A DNA stretch of 64,000 nt, taken from the NCBI RefSeq assembly GCF_019880305.1, contig NZ_CP082301.1, positions 1,612,001-1,676,000 on the forward strand. Direction: 5' to 3'. Position 1 is the first letter of the stretch, and the number at the start of each line of letters is the position of its first letter. This document shows positions 33,536 through 56,482 of the stretch, piece after piece. This stretch comes from Streptomyces decoyicus. GTDB taxonomy: Bacteria > Actinomycetota > Actinomycetes > Streptomycetales > Streptomycetaceae. Below the pieces are notes generated by a model that searched no databases, was not told the origin of the DNA, and saw only the letters and a list, made by a program, of their open reading frames with translations. A program made the translations under genes and the position numbers.

Positions 33536-34345
33536 TCACCGGCGTGCGGCGCGCGCCTTGCGGTAGAGCAGGGCGCCCCCCAGCAGCATTCCGGCGCTGG
33601 CCGGAACCGCGTAGCCGATCGTTCCGGCACCCGTCTGCGCGAGATGCCCGGCAGGCTTGTGCGGCGTCACGGTCTGCGGATGCGACCCCGGGGTGTGCGG
33701 CTTGCTGGGCTTGCCCGGCTGCTGGGGCTTGCCCGGCTGCTGGGGCTTGCCCGGGTGGTGGCCGTCCCCCGGGTGGTGCGGCTTCTCCGGCTTGCCCGGG
33801 TGATGCGGCTTGCCGGGGTGGTGGGGCTTGCCGGGGTGGTGGGGCTTGCCCGGGTGGTGGGGCTTCCCCGGGTGGTGCGGCCTGCCCGGGGTGTGCGAAG
33901 ACCCGTTGGAGCAGTGGTTGCCGAAGGCCGGGTTCAGCAGCCCGCCCCCCGAGACATTGTTGCCGCAGGCATTCACCGGTACGTCGACCGGAGCCTGGAC
34001 ATTGTTGCCCGACACGACCCCCGGCGAGTTCGAGGTGCTGCCGGCGGCGCCGGCGCCCGTGTGCCCGCCCTGGTTGTGGTGACCGGCGTGCTGCCCGCCG
34101 CCGCCGACGTTGGCGCAGCGGTTGCCGAACGCGGGGTTCAGCAGCCCGACGGCATTGACGGTGTTACCGCAGGCGTTCACCGGAACGTGAACCGGTACCT
34201 GAACATTGTTGCCGGATCCCACGCCGGGCGAGTTCGCCGCGCCTCCGGCGGCTCCCGCGTCGGCGTGTGCATAGCCGGCGGCCAGGGCGAGTACGCCACT
34301 GGCGGCCGCCATGGTGATCAGGCCCTTTCGTGCGACCTGTCTCAT
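33536..34345 (-). CDS. chpC: Long chaplin with sortase signal (ChpC-type)
   Basis: The 269-residue cell-wall protein has a signal peptide (about 1-28, ending AHA) and two chaplin domains (about 30-78 and 97-145), each with VPVNACGN...GLLNPAFGN.C, i.e. two Cys for a disulfide. An extended (H)HPGKP / QQPGKP repeat spacer (about 150-205) follows, then the sorting signal LAQTG (235-239) with a hydrophobic segment and basic tail. Long chaplins are sortase-anchored to the hyphal wall and help short chaplins assemble the amyloid surface film for aerial growth. It is next to chpH, as in S. coelicolor. ATG 34345 follows AGGGGA. Confidence 0.93.
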   Translation of the reverse strand: MRQVARKGLITMAAASGVLALAAGYAHADAGAAGGAANSPGVGSGNNVQVPVHVPVNACGNTVNAVGLLNPAFGNRCANVGGGGQHAGHHNQGGHTGAGAAGSTSNSPGVVSGNNVQAPVDVPVNACGNNVSGGGLLNPAFGNHCSNGSSHTPGRPHHPGKPHHPGKPHHPGKPHHPGKPHHPGKPEKPHHPGDGHHPGKPQQPGKPQQPGKPSKPHTPGSHPQTVTPHKPAGHLAQTGAGTIGYAVPASAGMLLGGALLYRKARAARR

Positions 34346-34517: not shown

Positions 34518-34751
34518 TCACTTGTTGACGCAGCCCACACCGAACGCGGGGTTCAGCAGCCCGATCACGGAGACCGTGTTGCCACAGGCGTTCACCGGAA
34601 CGTGGACCGGCACCTGGATGGTGTTACCGGAAACCACACCAGCGGAGTTCAGGGCCGCGCCCTGGGCACCCGAGTCGGCAACGGCCAGGCCCGCACCGGC
34701 GAGCACGACACCACCGGCAACTGCCGCAGCGGCGACGATCTTCTTGATCAT
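34518..34751 (-). CDS. chpH: Short chaplin (ChpH-type)
   Basis: This 77-residue secreted protein has a Sec signal (about 1-25) and one chaplin domain with two Cys (VPVNACGNTVSVIGLLNPAFGVGC), ending VNK. Short chaplins such as ChpH and ChpE self-assemble into amyloid fibrils that lower water surface tension. It has a very strong Shine-Dalgarno, AAGGAGG, 5 nt before ATG 34751, which fits high expression. It lies 172 bp upstream of chpC on the same strand, and the gap shows no obvious terminator. Confidence 0.95.
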   Translation of the reverse strand: MIKKIVAAAAVAGGVVLAGAGLAVADSGAQGAALNSAGVVSGNTIQVPVHVPVNACGNTVSVIGLLNPAFGVGCVNK

Positions 34752-36526: not shown

Positions 36527-36614
36527 GTCCGGGTGGCGGAATGGCAGACGCGCTAGCTTGAGGTGCTAGTGCCCTTTATCGGGCGTGGGGGTTCAAGTCC
36601 CCCCTCGGACACCA
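36527..36614 (+). tRNA. tRNA-Leu (anticodon GAG), CCA encoded
   Basis: The 88-nt class II tRNA has acceptor arms GTCCGGG/CTCGGAC with one G-U pair. The anticodon stem CTAGC/GCTAG encloses loop TTGAGGT, anticodon GAG, which reads CUC/CUU. The variable arm is long (GTGCCCTTTATCGGGCG), as in leucine tRNAs, and the T-arm GGGGG-TTCAAGT-CCCCC is perfect. CCA is encoded at 36612-36614. Confidence 0.97.
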
Positions 36615-37883: not shown

Positions 37884-38294
37884 GTGCGCGTACGGATCGG
37901 GGTCGAGCAGGACACGGAGACCGGTGAGGCGGCACAGTCGCTGTACACGTGGCTGAGCGGTGATCCCGAGGTGCTCGCGGGAGCCGGGCTGTCGCCGGTG
38001 CGGCGGGCCGGGGAGCCCGGGCCCATGGGGCCGGTCCTGGAGGCCGTCGAGGCGGTGTTCGACAGCGGTGTGCAGCTGGCCTCGCTGGTGGTGGCGGTGG
38101 CGAGCTGGCGCAGCACGCGGCCGCGCGCCGGGCGCGTCCACATCGAACGCGCGGGGGCCAGGGTGACGGTCGACGGCGGGGATCCCGAGGCCGTCGCGCG
38201 GGTGCTGCGGGCGCTCGGCGAGGGCGGCGACCCGGAGGTGGGGCGCGGCGAGGGCGACGCGGCGCCGGCGGACCGGCCCGGCCGGCAGGACTAG
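37884..38294 (+). CDS. EACC1 (effector-associated constant component 1)
   Basis: The 136-residue protein matches the EACC1 family in pattern: a first strand VRIGVE, SLYTWLSGDPEV, a Gly-rich turn ending PGPMGPVLEAVEAVFDSGVQLASLVVAVASWRSTR, then VHIERAGARVTVDGGDPEAVARVLRAL. These small proteins were described computationally as constant partners of effectors such as caspases in bacterial conflict systems; their biochemistry is unknown. The C-terminal 25 residues are acidic and disordered. GTG start 37884, chosen to keep the VRVRIGVE strand. It is the first gene of a four-gene operon, with a 4-nt gap to the caspase gene. Confidence 0.82.
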   Translation: MRVRIGVEQDTETGEAAQSLYTWLSGDPEVLAGAGLSPVRRAGEPGPMGPVLEAVEAVFDSGVQLASLVVAVASWRSTRPRAGRVHIERAGARVTVDGGDPEAVARVLRALGEGGDPEVGRGEGDAAPADRPGRQD

Positions 38295-38298
38295 TGCG

Positions 38299-39801
38299 TT
38301 GGCGGGAGCGCTGTCCGACCCGTCCCGTTCACGCGCCGTCCTGATCGGTACGGATGCGTATACGGAGCTGGACGACATCCCCGCGGTGGCGAACAACATC
38401 GGCCGGCTGCGGGAGTTGCTGGGCGATCCGGCGGTCTGGGGGCTGGCGGACGAGCGGTGCAGCGTACTGCGGCAGCCGTCCCGGCAGACGGTCCTGGACA
38501 CGGTGTTCGACGCCGCCGCCGAGGCGACCGACACCATGGTGCTCTATTACGCGGGCCATGGCCTGGTCCACCCGCAGTCAGGGGAGCTCCACCTCGCGCT
38601 GCCCGGGTCGCACCCGGACCGGCCGCACACGGCGCTGCGTTACGAGGAGCTGCGCTCGATCCTGCTGTCCCCGGCGGGCGGGCGTCCCTCGGCCCGGCGC
38701 AAGGTGGTCATTCTGGACTGCTGCTGGAGCGGTCTGGCGCTGGGCGGCCTCATGCACGGCGGGGATCTCGTGCCCGGGGTCGCCGTCGAGGGGGCCTTCG
38801 TACTGACCGCCACCGCGGCGACGCGTCAGGCGCTGGCCCCGCCGGGAGAGACCTATACCGCGTTCACCGGTGAGCTGATCCGTCTGCTGGACGCCGGGGT
38901 GCCGGGGCGGCCTGCGCTGCTGAGCATGTCGGCGCTCTTCGAGGAGCTGGCCGCGGCGCTCCTCGCGAAGTCCCGGCCGCAGCCCCAGCAGAGCAACCGC
39001 AACTCCGCCGGGCAGATCTGTCTGTTCCGTAACCGTGCCGGGGCGGCGGGGGCGGACACTCCGCACGCCGGGGGCGGTCCGCCGGAGGCCGCGGTGCCGC
39101 GGGCGGCTGAGCGTCGTGCCGGGGCCCCGGCACGCCGTACGGCGCCGTCGCCCCCGGTGGCAGTGCCGGACGAGGAAGCGCCTTCGTGGCCGGAGCTGGC
39201 AACGGTGGCGCTGACGGAGACCACGACGGTGCGGCTGGGCCGGTATCCGGTGACGCACGCCCAGTTCCGTGCGTTCCTCCGCGATCCGGACAACGCGCAC
39301 TGGCGCCCGGAGGCCGCGCGGGCGGCGGGAACGTACGTGGACGACAACTATCTGCGCGGCTGGGACGGGCTGGACTTTCCGGTGGGGCGCGGCGGCCATC
39401 CCGTGGTGGCGGTGAGCTTTCCCGCCGCCCGCGCCTATGCGGCCTGGGCGGGCCGCCGGCTGGGGGTCGCGCTGCGGCTGCCGACCGTGGCGGAGTGGGC
39501 GCTGGCGGCACGGGCCGGGCGGACCGGGGAGTGGTGGCGCGAGGACATCGCCGCGGGCCGGGTCAACTTCCGTGGCAGTCATGCCGCGTTGGCCCCGGTC
39601 GGGGAATTCCCACCGAACCCGTACAACATCGGCGATCTGCTCGGTAACGTCTGGGACATCTGCGTGGACGACACGGGTGCACCGGTGCTGCGCGGCGGGG
39701 CGTATGACACTCCCGCGGCGCGGCTGCGGGAGGAACTGTCGCCACGGTCACCGGCCGAGTGCCGCGGGAACGTCGGATTCCGGTGTGCCGGCGACAGGTG
39801 A
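38299..39801 (+). CDS. Caspase-like protease fused to a SUMF1/FGE-like domain
   Basis: The 500-residue protein has an N-terminal caspase-like (C14) domain, about residues 12-230: SRAVLIGTDAYTELDDIPAVANNIGRL, MVLYYAGHG with the catalytic His87, and KVVILDCCWSGLA with Cys142 as the likely nucleophile. A Pro/Ala-rich linker (about 235-290) leads to a formylglycine-generating-enzyme-like domain (about 295-500): GRYPVTHAQFRAF, HPVVAVSFPAARAYAAWAG, RLPTVAEWALAAR, NVWDICVDD, RGGAY and GFRCAGD. The paired cysteines that make FGE catalytic are absent from the RGGAYDTPAARLREEL stretch, so this half is probably a binding module. TTG start at 38299; no better in-frame start is visible. Confidence 0.87.
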   Translation: MAGALSDPSRSRAVLIGTDAYTELDDIPAVANNIGRLRELLGDPAVWGLADERCSVLRQPSRQTVLDTVFDAAAEATDTMVLYYAGHGLVHPQSGELHLALPGSHPDRPHTALRYEELRSILLSPAGGRPSARRKVVILDCCWSGLALGGLMHGGDLVPGVAVEGAFVLTATAATRQALAPPGETYTAFTGELIRLLDAGVPGRPALLSMSALFEELAAALLAKSRPQPQQSNRNSAGQICLFRNRAGAAGADTPHAGGGPPEAAVPRAAERRAGAPARRTAPSPPVAVPDEEAPSWPELATVALTETTTVRLGRYPVTHAQFRAFLRDPDNAHWRPEAARAAGTYVDDNYLRGWDGLDFPVGRGGHPVVAVSFPAARAYAAWAGRRLGVALRLPTVAEWALAARAGRTGEWWREDIAAGRVNFRGSHAALAPVGEFPPNPYNIGDLLGNVWDICVDDTGAPVLRGGAYDTPAARLREELSPRSPAECRGNVGFRCAGDR

Positions 39802-39817
39802 CGACGAGAGGAGATCC

Positions 39818-42349
39818 ATGCGGGGGGACGCCGTCGACGAGCTGCTGAAGCGGTTGCCGTACACCTGGACCACGAAGGAGGCCGAGCAGGTCGGCCGGCG
39901 GTTCCGGGAGAGCCGGCCGGCCGTGCCGAAGCGCCTGGTGAGAAGCCTGTGGCAGTACTGGCTCCGGATGTGCCCGGACGAGCTGCTGTTCGGCGACACC
40001 GAGGACGATCTCGCACTGGTGCTGCACGCCCGCGCGCTGGGGCTCCAGGTCCCCGGCGGCGACCTCGGGGCGGACGACAGCCCGGTCGCACGGTGTGCCC
40101 GGCGGGCCCGGGAGTCCACGGAGTGCGGGCCGCTGTTCCCCGCGCCACCGGTGTGGGGGCCGAAGGCGGCGCTCGCGCCGCAGGTGCGCGCCGCGCTGCC
40201 CTCGTCGCTGCTGCGGGCGTGGGTGGCGGGGGACGAACAGGGCCCCGTGGAAGTGCTGGTGGTCGGCGAGGGCATTCCCGAGATCCGGCAGCAGGTGGTG
40301 CAGGCGGCGCTCACGACCTGTCTGCGGGTCAACGGCCTGAGCGACCCGGACAGCGGTGACTTCGTCGGGGACCACATCGGCGTCGGGCTGATCCGGGTGA
40401 CGGCCGGGCTGTCCGGCAAACAGCCCTCGCTCGACATCCCGTCGGCCTTCCGTGCGCGGTCGGTGACGGTGGCGGACGCCGCGTCGTCGACGGCCCGCGG
40501 GGCGCTGCGCGACTTCGTCGGGCTGCTGCGGTCGCTGGCCCATGAGACCAGCCTGGTGGAGGTCGCGGATATCGCGTATGCGGATCTGGTGACGTACGCC
40601 CAGGGGTTGCGGGCGCTCGCGGACCGGGCGGCGGGTGAGACGGACCGGGCTTTCCTGCGGGCGCCGCGCTCACCGGACGGCGCTCTGGTGTCGCTTCAGC
40701 CGTACCTCCGTACCGCCAAGGGGCACGGGGCCACCGTGGGACTGGAGTTCAGCCCGGACCTGTTCACCACGGACGCCTATCTGGGCGTCGAGCAGGCCCA
40801 CCAGCGGGTGCTCTCCCAGCGGCTGACCATGGACGCACGGCTGCGCCTGGACCAGCTGGAGGCGGAGATCCGGCAGCTGACGGCCGATCTGGCGGCCTTC
40901 AGCCGGGCGAATGCGGCGGAGCGGCGGGCGCTGTGGCCGGCGACGGTGCTGCTGGTGGAGCGGTTCGACGAGCCGACCGGCCGGACGATCCGGCTGACCG
41001 AGCCCGAGGAGCGCGAGACCGAGCAGTACTACGAGGTCAATGTCCCGCAGCTGATCTCCATGCGGGAGAAGTGGGCCCGGCGCATGGCCGAGCTGGTCGA
41101 GCAGTTGGAGACGGCGGTGCACCGGCCGCATGCACCGGCGCGGCAGGTGGCCGCCGGACGGTTCCTCGATGCCGCCTTACGGGGCGTCGCACCGGACGAG
41201 AGCCCGGCCACCGAACGGGCCTTCCTCGCGTGGTGCAAGGAGGCCGCGCCGATGCTGTGGTTCGAGTGGCGGTGCGCACTGCGCCGGTACGGCATCGCGC
41301 CGTCGGATGTCTTCACCCCGCACACGGTGCTGATCAGCCGCTATCTGCCGCCGACCGCGGAGGATGCGGCGCTGCTGTTCAGCCACCCGTACACCCTGGT
41401 GGACACCGCCCGGTCCGCGGTGCTCGCCGATGCCGAGCGCGGCGTGCTGGTGGTGCGGGACGCCACCGACCACGCCGAGCCCGCCCCGTCCGACGCCGCC
41501 GGGCCCGGCGCGCAGTCACTCTGGGACGGCCTCGCCCGGCTGGCCGAAGAGCCGGGCACCGAGGAGGAGTTCGGTGACCGGTTCCTCGACGCGCTGCGGG
41601 CGCAGCCGCACGGTATCGCCCGCCGGATGATCGAGGCCCTCCAGCCGGCCGGGCCCGCCGCCACCGAGGCGGACGAGATCGAGACCGCGCTGCGGACCGC
41701 GGAACGCCACACCTCGCTCGGCGAAGGGATGGACCGGGCGCTGATGGCGATGCGTTCGGAGGCGTTCCTGACCGCTCTGGAGTGCCTGGACGGGATCCGT
41801 ACCGAGCCGCAGTGGCAGACCCGGGTCTGGCTGCTGCGGGCGATCGTGGAGTGCCGCGCCGCGCGGCTGGAGCCGCGCGAGATCCCCGGTCTGCTCGGCC
41901 ACCAGATGCCCGGACTTCCCGAGGCGGCGCTACGGGCCCTGGACGAAGCGGGCAGCACCGACGAGGAGTTCACCCGGGTCTGGCTGGAGGCCCTGCCGGA
42001 GGCCGGTCTGGACAAGGGCATCCGGCGGCTGTTCCAGGGCCTGCCGCGGGCCCGGGCCGGCTGCAAGGGGGACCCGTTGCACAAGGTGAGCGCCGAGCGG
42101 GAGTACGCGGTGTGGCTCTTCCGTCGTGCGGTGGAGAACGCCCGGCTGGCCCGTCAGCTGGACGAGGCCGGTGAGGAGCTCGCCGAGGATCAGGAGGCCG
42201 TCGATACGGCGCTGGCCAAGCTGGGCCGGGCACTGGAGGAGATTCTTGTGGGGCCGTACGTCGGGGGTTCGCGGGGTGAGGCCGAGGAGCTCTTCGAGGT
42301 GCTCTCCGGGCAGGAACCCCCGCGCTACGGCCGTGTGGCGGGGAGATGA
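39818..42349 (+). CDS. Unrecognised 843-residue protein of the caspase operon, with TTA codon
   Basis: I do not recognise this protein. It has no signal peptide, membrane segment or P-loop. The N-terminus (1-75) is helical with WQYWLRMCPDELLFGDTEDDL. A beta-rich stretch (about 143-215) contains VEVLVVGEGIPEIRQQVVQ. A coiled coil spans about 336-372 (RLRLDQLEAEIRQLTADLAAF). The C-terminal third is helical and repeat-like (ECLDGIRTEPQWQTRVWLLRAIVECRAA). Codon 454 is TTA (41177-41179), decoded only by the bldA tRNA in Streptomyces. ATG 39818 follows AGGAGA; 16 nt after the caspase stop and 3 nt before the next gene. By position it is the partner or target of the caspase. Confidence 0.8.
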   Translation: MRGDAVDELLKRLPYTWTTKEAEQVGRRFRESRPAVPKRLVRSLWQYWLRMCPDELLFGDTEDDLALVLHARALGLQVPGGDLGADDSPVARCARRARESTECGPLFPAPPVWGPKAALAPQVRAALPSSLLRAWVAGDEQGPVEVLVVGEGIPEIRQQVVQAALTTCLRVNGLSDPDSGDFVGDHIGVGLIRVTAGLSGKQPSLDIPSAFRARSVTVADAASSTARGALRDFVGLLRSLAHETSLVEVADIAYADLVTYAQGLRALADRAAGETDRAFLRAPRSPDGALVSLQPYLRTAKGHGATVGLEFSPDLFTTDAYLGVEQAHQRVLSQRLTMDARLRLDQLEAEIRQLTADLAAFSRANAAERRALWPATVLLVERFDEPTGRTIRLTEPEERETEQYYEVNVPQLISMREKWARRMAELVEQLETAVHRPHAPARQVAAGRFLDAALRGVAPDESPATERAFLAWCKEAAPMLWFEWRCALRRYGIAPSDVFTPHTVLISRYLPPTAEDAALLFSHPYTLVDTARSAVLADAERGVLVVRDATDHAEPAPSDAAGPGAQSLWDGLARLAEEPGTEEEFGDRFLDALRAQPHGIARRMIEALQPAGPAATEADEIETALRTAERHTSLGEGMDRALMAMRSEAFLTALECLDGIRTEPQWQTRVWLLRAIVECRAARLEPREIPGLLGHQMPGLPEAALRALDEAGSTDEEFTRVWLEALPEAGLDKGIRRLFQGLPRARAGCKGDPLHKVSAEREYAVWLFRRAVENARLARQLDEAGEELAEDQEAVDTALAKLGRALEEILVGPYVGGSRGEAEELFEVLSGQEPPRYGRVAGR

Positions 42350-42352
42350 GGC

Positions 42353-43717
42353 ATGGACAACGAGCTGTATGTCGTGTGGATGGTGCGGACCTCGGACCGC
42401 GCGATGGCGGCGGCCGAGGAGGCGCTGGGGAACTTCGCCGCGCATGATCTGCTGCACCGGATCGGCCGGTTCAGCGAGGCCGAGAGCCGGCTGGCGGAGC
42501 TGGCCGCCCGTATCCGGGCCGCCTTCACGCCACCGGAGCTGCCGGCCGTGTTCACCGGGCGCCATCTGCATCTGCTGGTCGGCCCCACCGCACAGCCGCT
42601 GCTCGCGAAGATCCTCCGGTGCCCGGAGTCCGATGTGTTCGCCACCCTCTTCGACGCGCATCAGCTCGCTCAGGCACTGCGCGAGACGGGGGCGCACCAA
42701 GACGGCATCGACGACGCCGAGTTGCTGCTGCTGGCGCTGCTGGCCCGGCTGCCGCGGCTCGCCGCCCGGCACGGTCTGGAGTCGCGCGACTGGGGCGGTT
42801 TCGTCGAGGGGCGGGCCTGGCTGACCCCGTACGCACTGGACCGGCTCACCGAGCTCGCCCGGCGGCGCGGATGGTCCGCCGACGCCGCCCCCACCCAGAT
42901 CCTCGCGGGCGTGCTGGAAGGCGTCGGCGGGCGGCAGGACGCCGACCGGTCGGCGCAGTTCGACGCGCTGGCGCTGATCGAGCTCCGCCGGCGGATCGGC
43001 CTGCTCAGCGAGCAGTTGCGCGGCGACGCGCTGGAACACGCCGAGGAGGCCGCGCGGCTGGCGCCCGATCTCACCAGCGTCAGCCGGCTGCCCGCATGGC
43101 TGGAGCTGTACGAGCACCATGCGGTGGCCGTGGGCATGCGGCGGCTGTTCACCGGCTCCGTGACGGTCGCCGAGCAGTTCGAGGGTCTGCACAGCCAGCC
43201 GCCCCCGGAGACGGGCAGGCCGAAGCCGGACGAGCATCTGGACGTGATCAACGAGGTCCGCTACGGCTTCCTGAAGCGGCGGATGTCGTTCGACATCGCC
43301 TGCGAGGTGGAGGGGGCGTCGCACCCGCTGGTCGTGCTGCGCTGCCGTGGGGTGCTGCCGGAGCACTACCCCGCCCTGCGCGACACCGTCCGTCGGCTGC
43401 GCGGCAGTGACCTCTCGACGCAGGGCGAGAGCCTGGGCGAGCGGCTGCTCCGCACGGCGGTGCCGCAGCGCCTGGGCCTGCCGGGCCGGCTGCGGTCCGC
43501 GCTGCAGCACCACAGCGCCGAGGCGGTGCAGTGCGTGGTGCTGACCGGGATCCGCCAGCCGGTCGCCGTGCCCGCGCCATGGCGCGATCATCTGGGCACG
43601 TCGCTGCCGTACGCGGCGCCGCCCGGCGGGGACACCGTGTTCGCCGCGACGCCGGAGGTGACCCGTGCGCTGCGGGAGAGCGTGCCCCGCACACGGCGGG
43701 TCGTGGAGGTGGAGTGA
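42353..43717 (+). CDS. Unrecognised 454-residue protein of the caspase operon
   Basis: I recognise no family here. The protein is cytoplasmic, helix-rich and Arg/Leu-rich, beginning MDNELYVVWMVRTSDRAMAA, with SDVFATLFDAHQLAQAL, a central helical part (LALIELRRRIGLLSEQLRGDALEHAEEAARL), VINEVRYGFLKRRMSFDIACEVEGASHP and a beta-like end (VQCVVLTGIRQPVAVPAPW). There are no catalytic motifs. The start ATG 42353 lies 3 nt after the preceding stop, so it is translationally coupled. As the last gene of the operon it may be a regulator, immunity or adaptor component; this is positional inference only. Confidence 0.78.
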   Translation: MDNELYVVWMVRTSDRAMAAAEEALGNFAAHDLLHRIGRFSEAESRLAELAARIRAAFTPPELPAVFTGRHLHLLVGPTAQPLLAKILRCPESDVFATLFDAHQLAQALRETGAHQDGIDDAELLLLALLARLPRLAARHGLESRDWGGFVEGRAWLTPYALDRLTELARRRGWSADAAPTQILAGVLEGVGGRQDADRSAQFDALALIELRRRIGLLSEQLRGDALEHAEEAARLAPDLTSVSRLPAWLELYEHHAVAVGMRRLFTGSVTVAEQFEGLHSQPPPETGRPKPDEHLDVINEVRYGFLKRRMSFDIACEVEGASHPLVVLRCRGVLPEHYPALRDTVRRLRGSDLSTQGESLGERLLRTAVPQRLGLPGRLRSALQHHSAEAVQCVVLTGIRQPVAVPAPWRDHLGTSLPYAAPPGGDTVFAATPEVTRALRESVPRTRRVVEVE

Positions 43718-55498: not shown

Positions 55499-56482
55499 TC
55501 ACGGGGCGGCGGCGTCCCCGGCCCGGCGGAGTGCCGTGGCCCGTGCGGCCCGGAAGGCGCCTTCGGCGTCGCGGCCCGGGTACGACCACGGTGCGCGGGT
55601 GGGGTACGGGCCGATGCGCCCGAAGAGCGCGGCGGCCTCGGCCATCCTCCCTTGGTGGAACGTGGCATGGGCCAGGAAGTTGAGATCGATCTTCCGGCGC
55701 GGATGCTCCTCGCCCTCCCATTCCAGCCACCAGTCGACGGCGCTCTGGAGGACCTGCCGGGCGCGCCGGGTGGACCAGGGGCCCCAGTCCGCGGGGTCGG
55801 GGGGCGCCAGTCCCGCGGCGGCCAGTACGCGGTAGCGCTCGGCGTGCGCCACGACGGGGAGGAGCGCGAGCGGGGAGTCGGCGGGGGCGCCTGCCGCGGA
55901 CCGGGCCGCGAAGGCGTGGGCCGGGTGCCGCGGGTCGTCGGTGGCACCGGGCCACTGTTCGGCCAGGGAGGCCGTCATGAGGTGGTGTGCGTGGTGGTGG
56001 TCGCGGTGGCGGGCACGTACCTGGTGGAAGGCGTGTGCCCGTTCGTCCGGGGTGCCGGTGCGGCGGGCGAGGATCAGCGCGCCGAGCCAGGGGGTGGGGT
56101 CGTCGGGCAGCATCCGGGCGGCGGTGGCACAGGCCTTGGCGGCGGCCTCGGCGCTGCTCTCGCCGCGCAGGGCGAGATGGACGGTGGCGAGGGCGAGGAG
56201 GGTGGCTGCGTCGCCGCTGTCCGGTTCGGCGAGCTGCCAGTCGCCGGCCCAGGCGGCGCTGCCGGGACCGGTGGCCAGGACGGTTAATCGGTGGCCGCGC
56301 AGATCCCAGTCCTCGCCGGTCCCGGCGAGCAGGGTGCGCACCCGGGCCCATTGGCCCAGCGCCAACGCCTCGGCGGCGATGGCCAGTTGGGTGTCGTCCA
56401 GGGCCGGCGCGAGCACCGGGGCACCCGGGCAGCGGGTACGTCCGAGGGACGGCGGCGGTGGCGAAGGAGAAATCGAAATCAC
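55499..56482 (-). CDS. Hypothetical protein with helical repeat-like architecture and TTA codon
   Basis: The 327-residue protein has no recognised family. It is Ala/Arg-rich and helical (LAIAAEALALGQWARVRTLL, EGAFRAARATALRRAG), reminiscent of TPR/alpha-solenoid proteins. WWLEWEGEEHPRRKIDLNFLAHATFHQGRMAEAAALF near the end looks like one repeat. GTG start 56482 is uncertain. Codon 66 is TTA (56287-56285, minus strand), so translation may depend on bldA. It stands alone between the molybdopterin pair and the KstD-like gene. Confidence 0.62.
   Translation of the reverse strand: MISISPSPPPPSLGRTRCPGAPVLAPALDDTQLAIAAEALALGQWARVRTLLAGTGEDWDLRGHRLTVLATGPGSAAWAGDWQLAEPDSGDAATLLALATVHLALRGESSAEAAAKACATAARMLPDDPTPWLGALILARRTGTPDERAHAFHQVRARHRDHHHAHHLMTASLAEQWPGATDDPRHPAHAFAARSAAGAPADSPLALLPVVAHAERYRVLAAAGLAPPDPADWGPWSTRRARQVLQSAVDWWLEWEGEEHPRRKIDLNFLAHATFHQGRMAEAAALFGRIGPYPTRAPWSYPGRDAEGAFRAARATALRRAGDAAAP

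Follow-up and report, generated by a model that had tools for sequence, protein, structure and literature searches.

Described systems related to the locus

In Streptomyces, the TTA codon is read solely by the bldA tRNA, which is developmentally timed, and the 64,000-nucleotide stretch of Streptomyces decoyicus DNA analysed here (the window) carries one such codon in the third gene of an operon whose first two genes resemble a described conflict system. The closest relative in the literature is the EACC1-caspase "System 4" (Kaur et al. 2020, PMC7159879), which occurs in multicellular actinobacteria and has an EACC1 gene 5' of a gene for a caspase whose C-terminal domain varies, as is the case here; its reported traits include a conserved transmembrane helix in EACC1 and effectors that are released by proteolysis, and the passages concerned make no mention of TTA or bldA. 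Unlike System 4, which is described as two genes, the operon of the window comprises two more genes (843 and 454 aa) that match no searched family.

A second term of comparison is provided by the known bldA-dependent TTA genes, adpA and others (PMC4255298, PMC10327506). As in their case, gene 3 of the operon has one in-frame TTA, one UAA tRNA gene was found in the genome, and conservation of the codon is low, as is typical; unlike in their case, the TTA lies mid-gene instead of early, there is no sign of a regulator, and the dependence on bldA is predicted. Streptomyces TTA codons have been reported to be biased toward gene starts (PMC4255298), and a survey of 213 species counted a mean of 177 TTA genes each, with most TTA codons poorly conserved and horizontal transfer offered as a source (PMC10327506).

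The eCIS regions tied to developmental cell death in S. coelicolor (PMC10020575) are likewise linked to death and have TTA at some of their loci (42/56 eCIS regions, against 34/96 of the EACC1-caspase loci counted below). In the eCIS regions, 22 of the genes with TTA are putative regulators, and measured promoter activity peaks late, whereas here the codons stand in the system's own genes and are known from sequence alone. In S. venezuelae, aerial development is reported to contain phage infection, in an account that does not name bldA where this is described, although the expression of many developmental genes falls there soon after infection begins (PMC10117723); a 2026 paper proposes a similar gating for TTA genes of a Streptomyces phage (PMC13350457). 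Literature searches that left most subscription journals outside their reach found no paper linking the TTA codon with conflict systems or NLR in Streptomyces, and for TTA codon, caspase and Streptomyces together only papers unrelated by their title and the start of their abstract.

The operon and its TTA codon

The operon is made up of four genes on the forward strand, with spacings of 4, 16, and 3 bases in gene order:

37884..38294 (+), EACC1 gene; our own gene finder starts it at GTG 37884 (136 aa), and a start at ATG 37839 would give 151 aa; PF19953 matches the 151-aa version at E 8.1e-24
38299..39801 (+), EACC1-associated caspase with a fused FGE-sulfatase-like domain; 500 aa; NF047832, PF00656, PF03781; without TTA
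39818..42349 (+), gene 3; 843 aa; no family above cut-off; carries the TTA
41177..41179 (+), the TTA, codon 454 of gene 3, read from the sequence
42353..43717 (+), gene 4; 454 aa; no family found; without TTA; begins 3 bases past the gene 3 stop

The EACC1 gene lies directly 5' of the caspase gene (it ends at 38294, and the caspase ORF runs from 38299), whose product scores 223.4 bits against NF047832 (cut-off 140) and is covered by the FGE-sulfatase domain PF03781 over residues 310-497. The caspase operon of the original prediction is thus borne out, its first two genes fitting the published EACC1-caspase conflict-system type (PF19953, NF047832). Conversely, the description of gene 3 as the central component of the system finds no support, as no family lies above cut-off: for gene 3 and gene 4, NCBIfam and PADLOC gave no match with E of 0.1 or less, and Pfam none above its cut-off, a PDB sequence search with the gene 3 protein returned two matches (E 0.12 and 0.16) and no notable relative, and its AlphaFold model, built from 2 sequences, has a mean pLDDT of 34 and is unusable.

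The TTA at 41177-41179 (+) is in frame, 54% along gene 3 and away from its start, and is followed on the 3' side by CGG. A longer ORF of 970 aa is possible from 39437; the start at ATG 39818 is preferred since 39437 lies inside the caspase gene and the same MRGD start, with alike ends, is aligned in three orthologs. Upstream of ATG 39818, GGAGAT resembles by eye a ribosome site. Between the window and the ortholog of genome G064, differences at codon positions 1, 2, and 3 number 79, 61, and 177 over 843 codons, so their prevalence at third positions is the pattern of a coding frame. The bases read directly, the ortholog alignment, and this third-position bias establish the predicted codon as real and in frame. 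RNA structure near codon 454 shows no excess over chance (z -0.75), and promoter and terminator scans gave zero matches.

The surroundings of the operon include a Bax-inhibitor-1-like gene (PF12811; 43867-44628, +) about 150 bases past it, in conserved synteny; its presence there is probably coincidental. Upstream are a chaplin-domain gene (ChpA-C, two stretches; 33536-34345, -), with which a small ORF at 34518-34751 cross-matches in DNA, and a tRNA-Leu(GAG) gene (36527-36614, +) just before a pseudouridine synthase gene and the operon; the tRNA gene is a possible integration landmark, yet the operon is in place in all four species in which it was found.

Rarity of TTA and its reader in the genome

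The genome (G000) is a single contig of 8.63 Mb. Its tRNA matches number 66; typing covered 11 of them, namely the tRNA-Leu(GAG) of the window and all 10 long-form matches elsewhere, the other 55 being shorter. One tRNA-Leu(UAA) of the bldA type was found (G000:C1:3460401-3460482, -), so that the expected reader exists; leucine tRNAs are long-form, and the 55 shorter matches should therefore hold no second UAA. In some species, a little bldA tRNA may already be present in early growth, which would weaken the case for gating.

The frequency of TTA was estimated from 20 stretches of 20 kb (400 kb, in even steps) together with the window, gene 3 itself being excluded; genes were called with our own codon-score finder and not an annotation pipeline, and TTA was scored zero to avoid biasing the count. 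TTA occurs in 7/348 called genes of this sample, or 0.062 per 1000 codons, in agreement with the rarity that had been assumed. The expectation for 843 codons is 0.053, and the probability of at least one is about 0.05, so one TTA in so long a gene is unusual rather than remarkable. With the same gene finder, the window holds two TTA genes, gene 3 and, as the original prediction had it, a single other one (55499-56416, -, TTA at codon 44). The latter codes for 305 aa, and Pfam assigns it to none of its families at a threshold of E 0.001.

Five caspase-family matches are present in the genome, 3/5 of them with TTA in the caspase gene or an adjoining gene:

Window operon, TTA in gene 3, which adjoins the caspase gene
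G000:C1:6456395 (L286), caspase with fused DnaJ parts and its TTA at codon 106
G000:C1:1995256 (L287), caspase behind EACC1 (24.0 bits), below the NF047832 cut-off; TTA at codon 250, gene cut by the locus end
Two further weak caspase matches, without TTA in the part seen; one is a VMAP-M2 protein

For the small gene that precedes 6456395, Pfam gave nothing with E of 0.01 or less.

A predicted bldA-dependent step on gene 3

On balance, we lean toward a bldA-dependent step on gene 3, in a class of systems that tolerates such gating and in which the sites turn over rapidly. Given how TTA is read in Streptomyces, translation of full-length gene 3 would require the bldA tRNA. With charged tRNA-Leu(UAA) in short supply, the ribosome would stall midway in gene 3 and less of its product would be made; the stall would probably also lower gene 4 by polarity, through the 3-base junction and exposure of the mRNA, and EACC1 and caspase-FGE, upstream of the stall, would be affected only via mRNA stability. 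A precedent is found in a bldA mutant of S. coelicolor, in which the product of the TTA gene SCO6638 is reported to be lost and both RNA and protein of the overlapping downstream SCO6637 to be reduced (PMC2000904). If the operon behaves likewise, a shortage of the tRNA would reduce the products of gene 3 and gene 4 while EACC1 and caspase-FGE would still be made, and the gating idea, though a prediction, is sound in kind. If gene 3 restrains the caspase, the gating would act in the opposite direction.

In evolutionary terms, the codon would be tolerated and passing, with no fixed switch, and TTA codons would come and go at shifting positions, a class that is not purged of them thereby giving single species a bldA-gated copy. 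The tolerance may reflect a system that is unneeded, or better kept low, in vegetative growth, and a tie to aerial development may be inferred.

TTA codons across EACC1-caspase loci

The class was sampled from 126 listed matches above the cut-off in 121 genomes of the genus, 100 of which were fetched in score order; of the 26 remaining, the 20 lowest-scoring were left out and six were passed over (duplicates in G049 and G055, a neighbour in G101, one with stops in G006, the window, and L045). Four of 102 examined loci were dropped because no caspase gene was called, and the set used, which excludes the window and L045, comprises 96 loci from 61 genomes, one of them another locus of the window's genome. 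Operon genes were defined as those on the same strand with gaps below 60 bases, and flank genes include partial ones.

TTA was found in 36/203 operon genes and 36/729 flank genes, and the totals are 41 TTA among 86,311 codons in the operons and 41 among 200,812 in the flanks; a cruder first count that included the window and L045 gave 35/203 and 32/739 genes. The rate ratio is 2.33 (1.50-3.61), or 1.80 after adjustment for GC3 (1.17-2.78; 1.16-2.87 by genome bootstrap) and 1.98 with the GC3 correction when the first 30 codons are removed. At least one TTA is carried by 34 of the 96 loci, where the flank rate predicts 15.8. Outside Streptomyces, the first 20 listed loci yielded 16 usable ones (four were missed by the gene finder), with 7 TTA among 18,071 codons of operons and 8 among the 32,633 set against them, an underpowered comparison (rate ratio 1.58, 0.57-4.40).

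These counts could also arise by neutral drift in weakly expressed accessory genes, in which lax codon choice lets TTA and AGA accumulate with no regulatory effect beyond a slight slowing, an explanation that is possible but to our judgement somewhat doubtful. In its favour, an enrichment close to that of TTA is seen for AGA, a codon not read by bldA (GC3-adjusted rate ratio 1.71), so that general codon laxity may be the whole cause, and GC3 of the EACC1-caspase operons (0.873) is below that of the flanks (0.902). Drift also agrees with the published view that most TTA codons are poorly conserved and may stem from horizontal transfer (PMC10327506), and with the turnover of the sites within the class: in 25 pairs of caspases with at least 60% identity, TTA was kept at 0/5 positions where the residue is identical, alongside 2/22 for CTA, 16/110 for TTG, 12/82 for CTT, and 0/25 for AGA. 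On the other hand, CTA and ATA are without enrichment (0.81 and 0.76 after GC3 adjustment).

A further point against drift comes from N6-methyltransferases, a hard control in that they are well conserved and needed early. From their matches in the 121 genomes, the first 40 listed loci were used; TTA occurs in 0/40 methyltransferase genes (28,263 codons) and in 27/96 caspase genes (31 in 68,402 codons; Fisher p 3e-5), although the mean lengths (707 and 713) and GC3 (0.864 and 0.873) are closely matched. Whole methyltransferase operons equal their own flanks (0.218 and 0.219 TTA per 1000). These loci, too, are patchy and their operon GC3 is lower still (0.859), yet they are purged of TTA, which argues that patchiness and GC alone are insufficient.

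The 98 caspase proteins, window and L045 included, fall into 80 clusters at 60% identity, 25 of them with any TTA; when a single caspase is taken from each cluster, the density is nearly unchanged (0.474 per 1000), and kinship is thus not the driver of the count. Recurrent homologous TTA positions in the caspase genes were rejected, the sites being scattered, although a few alignment columns (161, 277, 486) are shared, as was a special 3' context (TTA followed by C, 35/42 in EACC1-caspase operons), since GTA and CTA are similarly biased in every set.

A neutral yardstick and the VMAP loci

The ratio TTA/(TTA+CTA) was used as a neutral yardstick, as the two codons are one base apart and most composition effects cancel. 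In EACC1-caspase operons, here including the window and L045, the counts are 42:77 (0.353), indistinguishable from the intergenic DNA of the same loci (697:1333, 0.343; p 0.85). Flank codons of these loci stand at 0.201, below the intergenic value (p 8e-6) and below the operons (Fisher p 0.004); the coding sample of the window's genome stands at 0.127 against 0.383 in the intergenic DNA of its own set (p 4e-5), and the methyltransferase loci at 0.111 against 0.366 in theirs (p 1e-20). Flanks and methyltransferase loci are purged of TTA, whereas the EACC1-caspase operons, by their equality with intergenic DNA, appear unpurged and not enriched past neutrality, as drift would also have it. The class does carry more TTA than its neighbour genes, but a neutral ratio denotes a lack of purging and not a maintained switch.

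A different picture is given by the VMAP-C set (L290-L319, 30 loci in score order), in which 27 VMAP genes, possibly cut at locus ends, were counted and three were missed. TTA is found in 12/27 VMAP genes, 13 TTA in 14,832 codons (rate ratio 4.2 against pooled flanks), and all genes called at the 30 loci, VMAP or not, give a TTA:CTA ratio of 27:17, above neutrality at p 3e-4 with kinship ignored; two pairs of TTA-bearing VMAP are 86% and 90% identical. This excess, which speaks against drift, is the strongest hint of selection for TTA, on few loci, and marks the VMAP genes as the most promising place to look for bldA gating among conflict systems; selection for gating is conceivable, chiefly in VMAP. 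A shared TTA alignment column in VMAP was discarded, as a better alignment lost 1/4 of its members and the rest lie in a gappy linker.

A broader proposition is that bldA gating is general to the multicellularity-linked conflict systems of Streptomyces, with death-type immunity restrained while hyphae are young and let loose only later or where development advances, and with codons that move within the operon while the gating of the class persists. The VMAP loci, which keep TTA above the neutral ratio, and the unpurged EACC1-caspase loci would both agree with it, and we regard it as unlikely, though conceivable.

Conservation of the codon in orthologs

Gene 3 is present in 3/392 genomes of the genus, the window's own counted, and in 3/248 relatives, which are the identical three genomes; a repeat draw of the genus found it in 2/371 genomes, the same two others and none new. 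A fourth copy comes from one further genome record, S. inhibens, and tblastn found no orthologs on plasmids. The neighbourhood of the operon is alike in all four species as far as the fetched flanks extend, so the operon appears to have been inherited in place. At the TTA site, the window and G064 have TTA, S. inhibens CTG, and G137 GTG (Val), with protein identities to the window of 85% for G064, 88% for S. inhibens, and 80% for G137; the nearest ortholog by this measure, S. inhibens, thus has CTG. TTA is kept in 2/4 sequences only, and the alignment across orthologous operons, which the original prediction had called for, does not show a firmly conserved codon and goes halfway toward the outcome named there as refuting.

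A dedicated developmental switch, in which selection keeps the TTA to confine firing of the death system to late or aerial growth, is very improbable on this evidence. It would account for the TTA common to the window and G064, in the same syntenic place at 87.5% nucleotide identity, for the TTA at 3/5 caspase-family loci of the genome, and for the eCIS regions tied to developmental cell death with TTA in 42/56 (PMC10020575). The shared codon is a hint of retention among four sequences, too few to weigh or to tell gain from loss, and it says little by itself, since 3/8 of the other uncommon leucine codons of gene 3 (TTG, CTT, CTA) are also kept in G064. Against the switch, two of the four orthologs, S. 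inhibens and G137, lack TTA at the site and, by our own gene calls, in the remaining operon genes; moreover, none of the five comparable TTA sites is kept in the caspase pairs, and the ratio of the class is neutral and not higher. A firmly conserved codon is ruled out by the CTG of S. inhibens and the GTG (Val) of G137, a conserved bldA switch in gene 3 is not supported by the alignment, and the TTA-less orthologs largely refute a switch for this gene, unless those species gate the operon otherwise. As poor conservation is the rule for TTA codons in the genus (PMC10327506), conservation is not a strict criterion for a bldA-regulated gene, and the bldA-dependent step with rapid site turnover is compatible with this pattern. 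Lastly, a wrong frame or a sequencing error is scarcely credible: the exact strain is represented by one genome only, but the frame is identical in four species and G064 has the TTA too, and a frame error is ruled out by the ORF position, the ortholog alignment, and the codon-position pattern of substitutions.

Significance for Streptomyces

The meaning of the single codon is modest, and the useful product is the comparison of classes with a neutral yardstick, which separates systems that are "not purged" of TTA (EACC1-caspase) from those "above neutral" (VMAP), both of which are worth following. If translation of conflict systems passes through the bldA tRNA, a single tRNA would tie both immunity and programmed death to development, and such a coupling, if true, would fit the containment of phage by aerial development described in S. 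venezuelae (PMC10117723).
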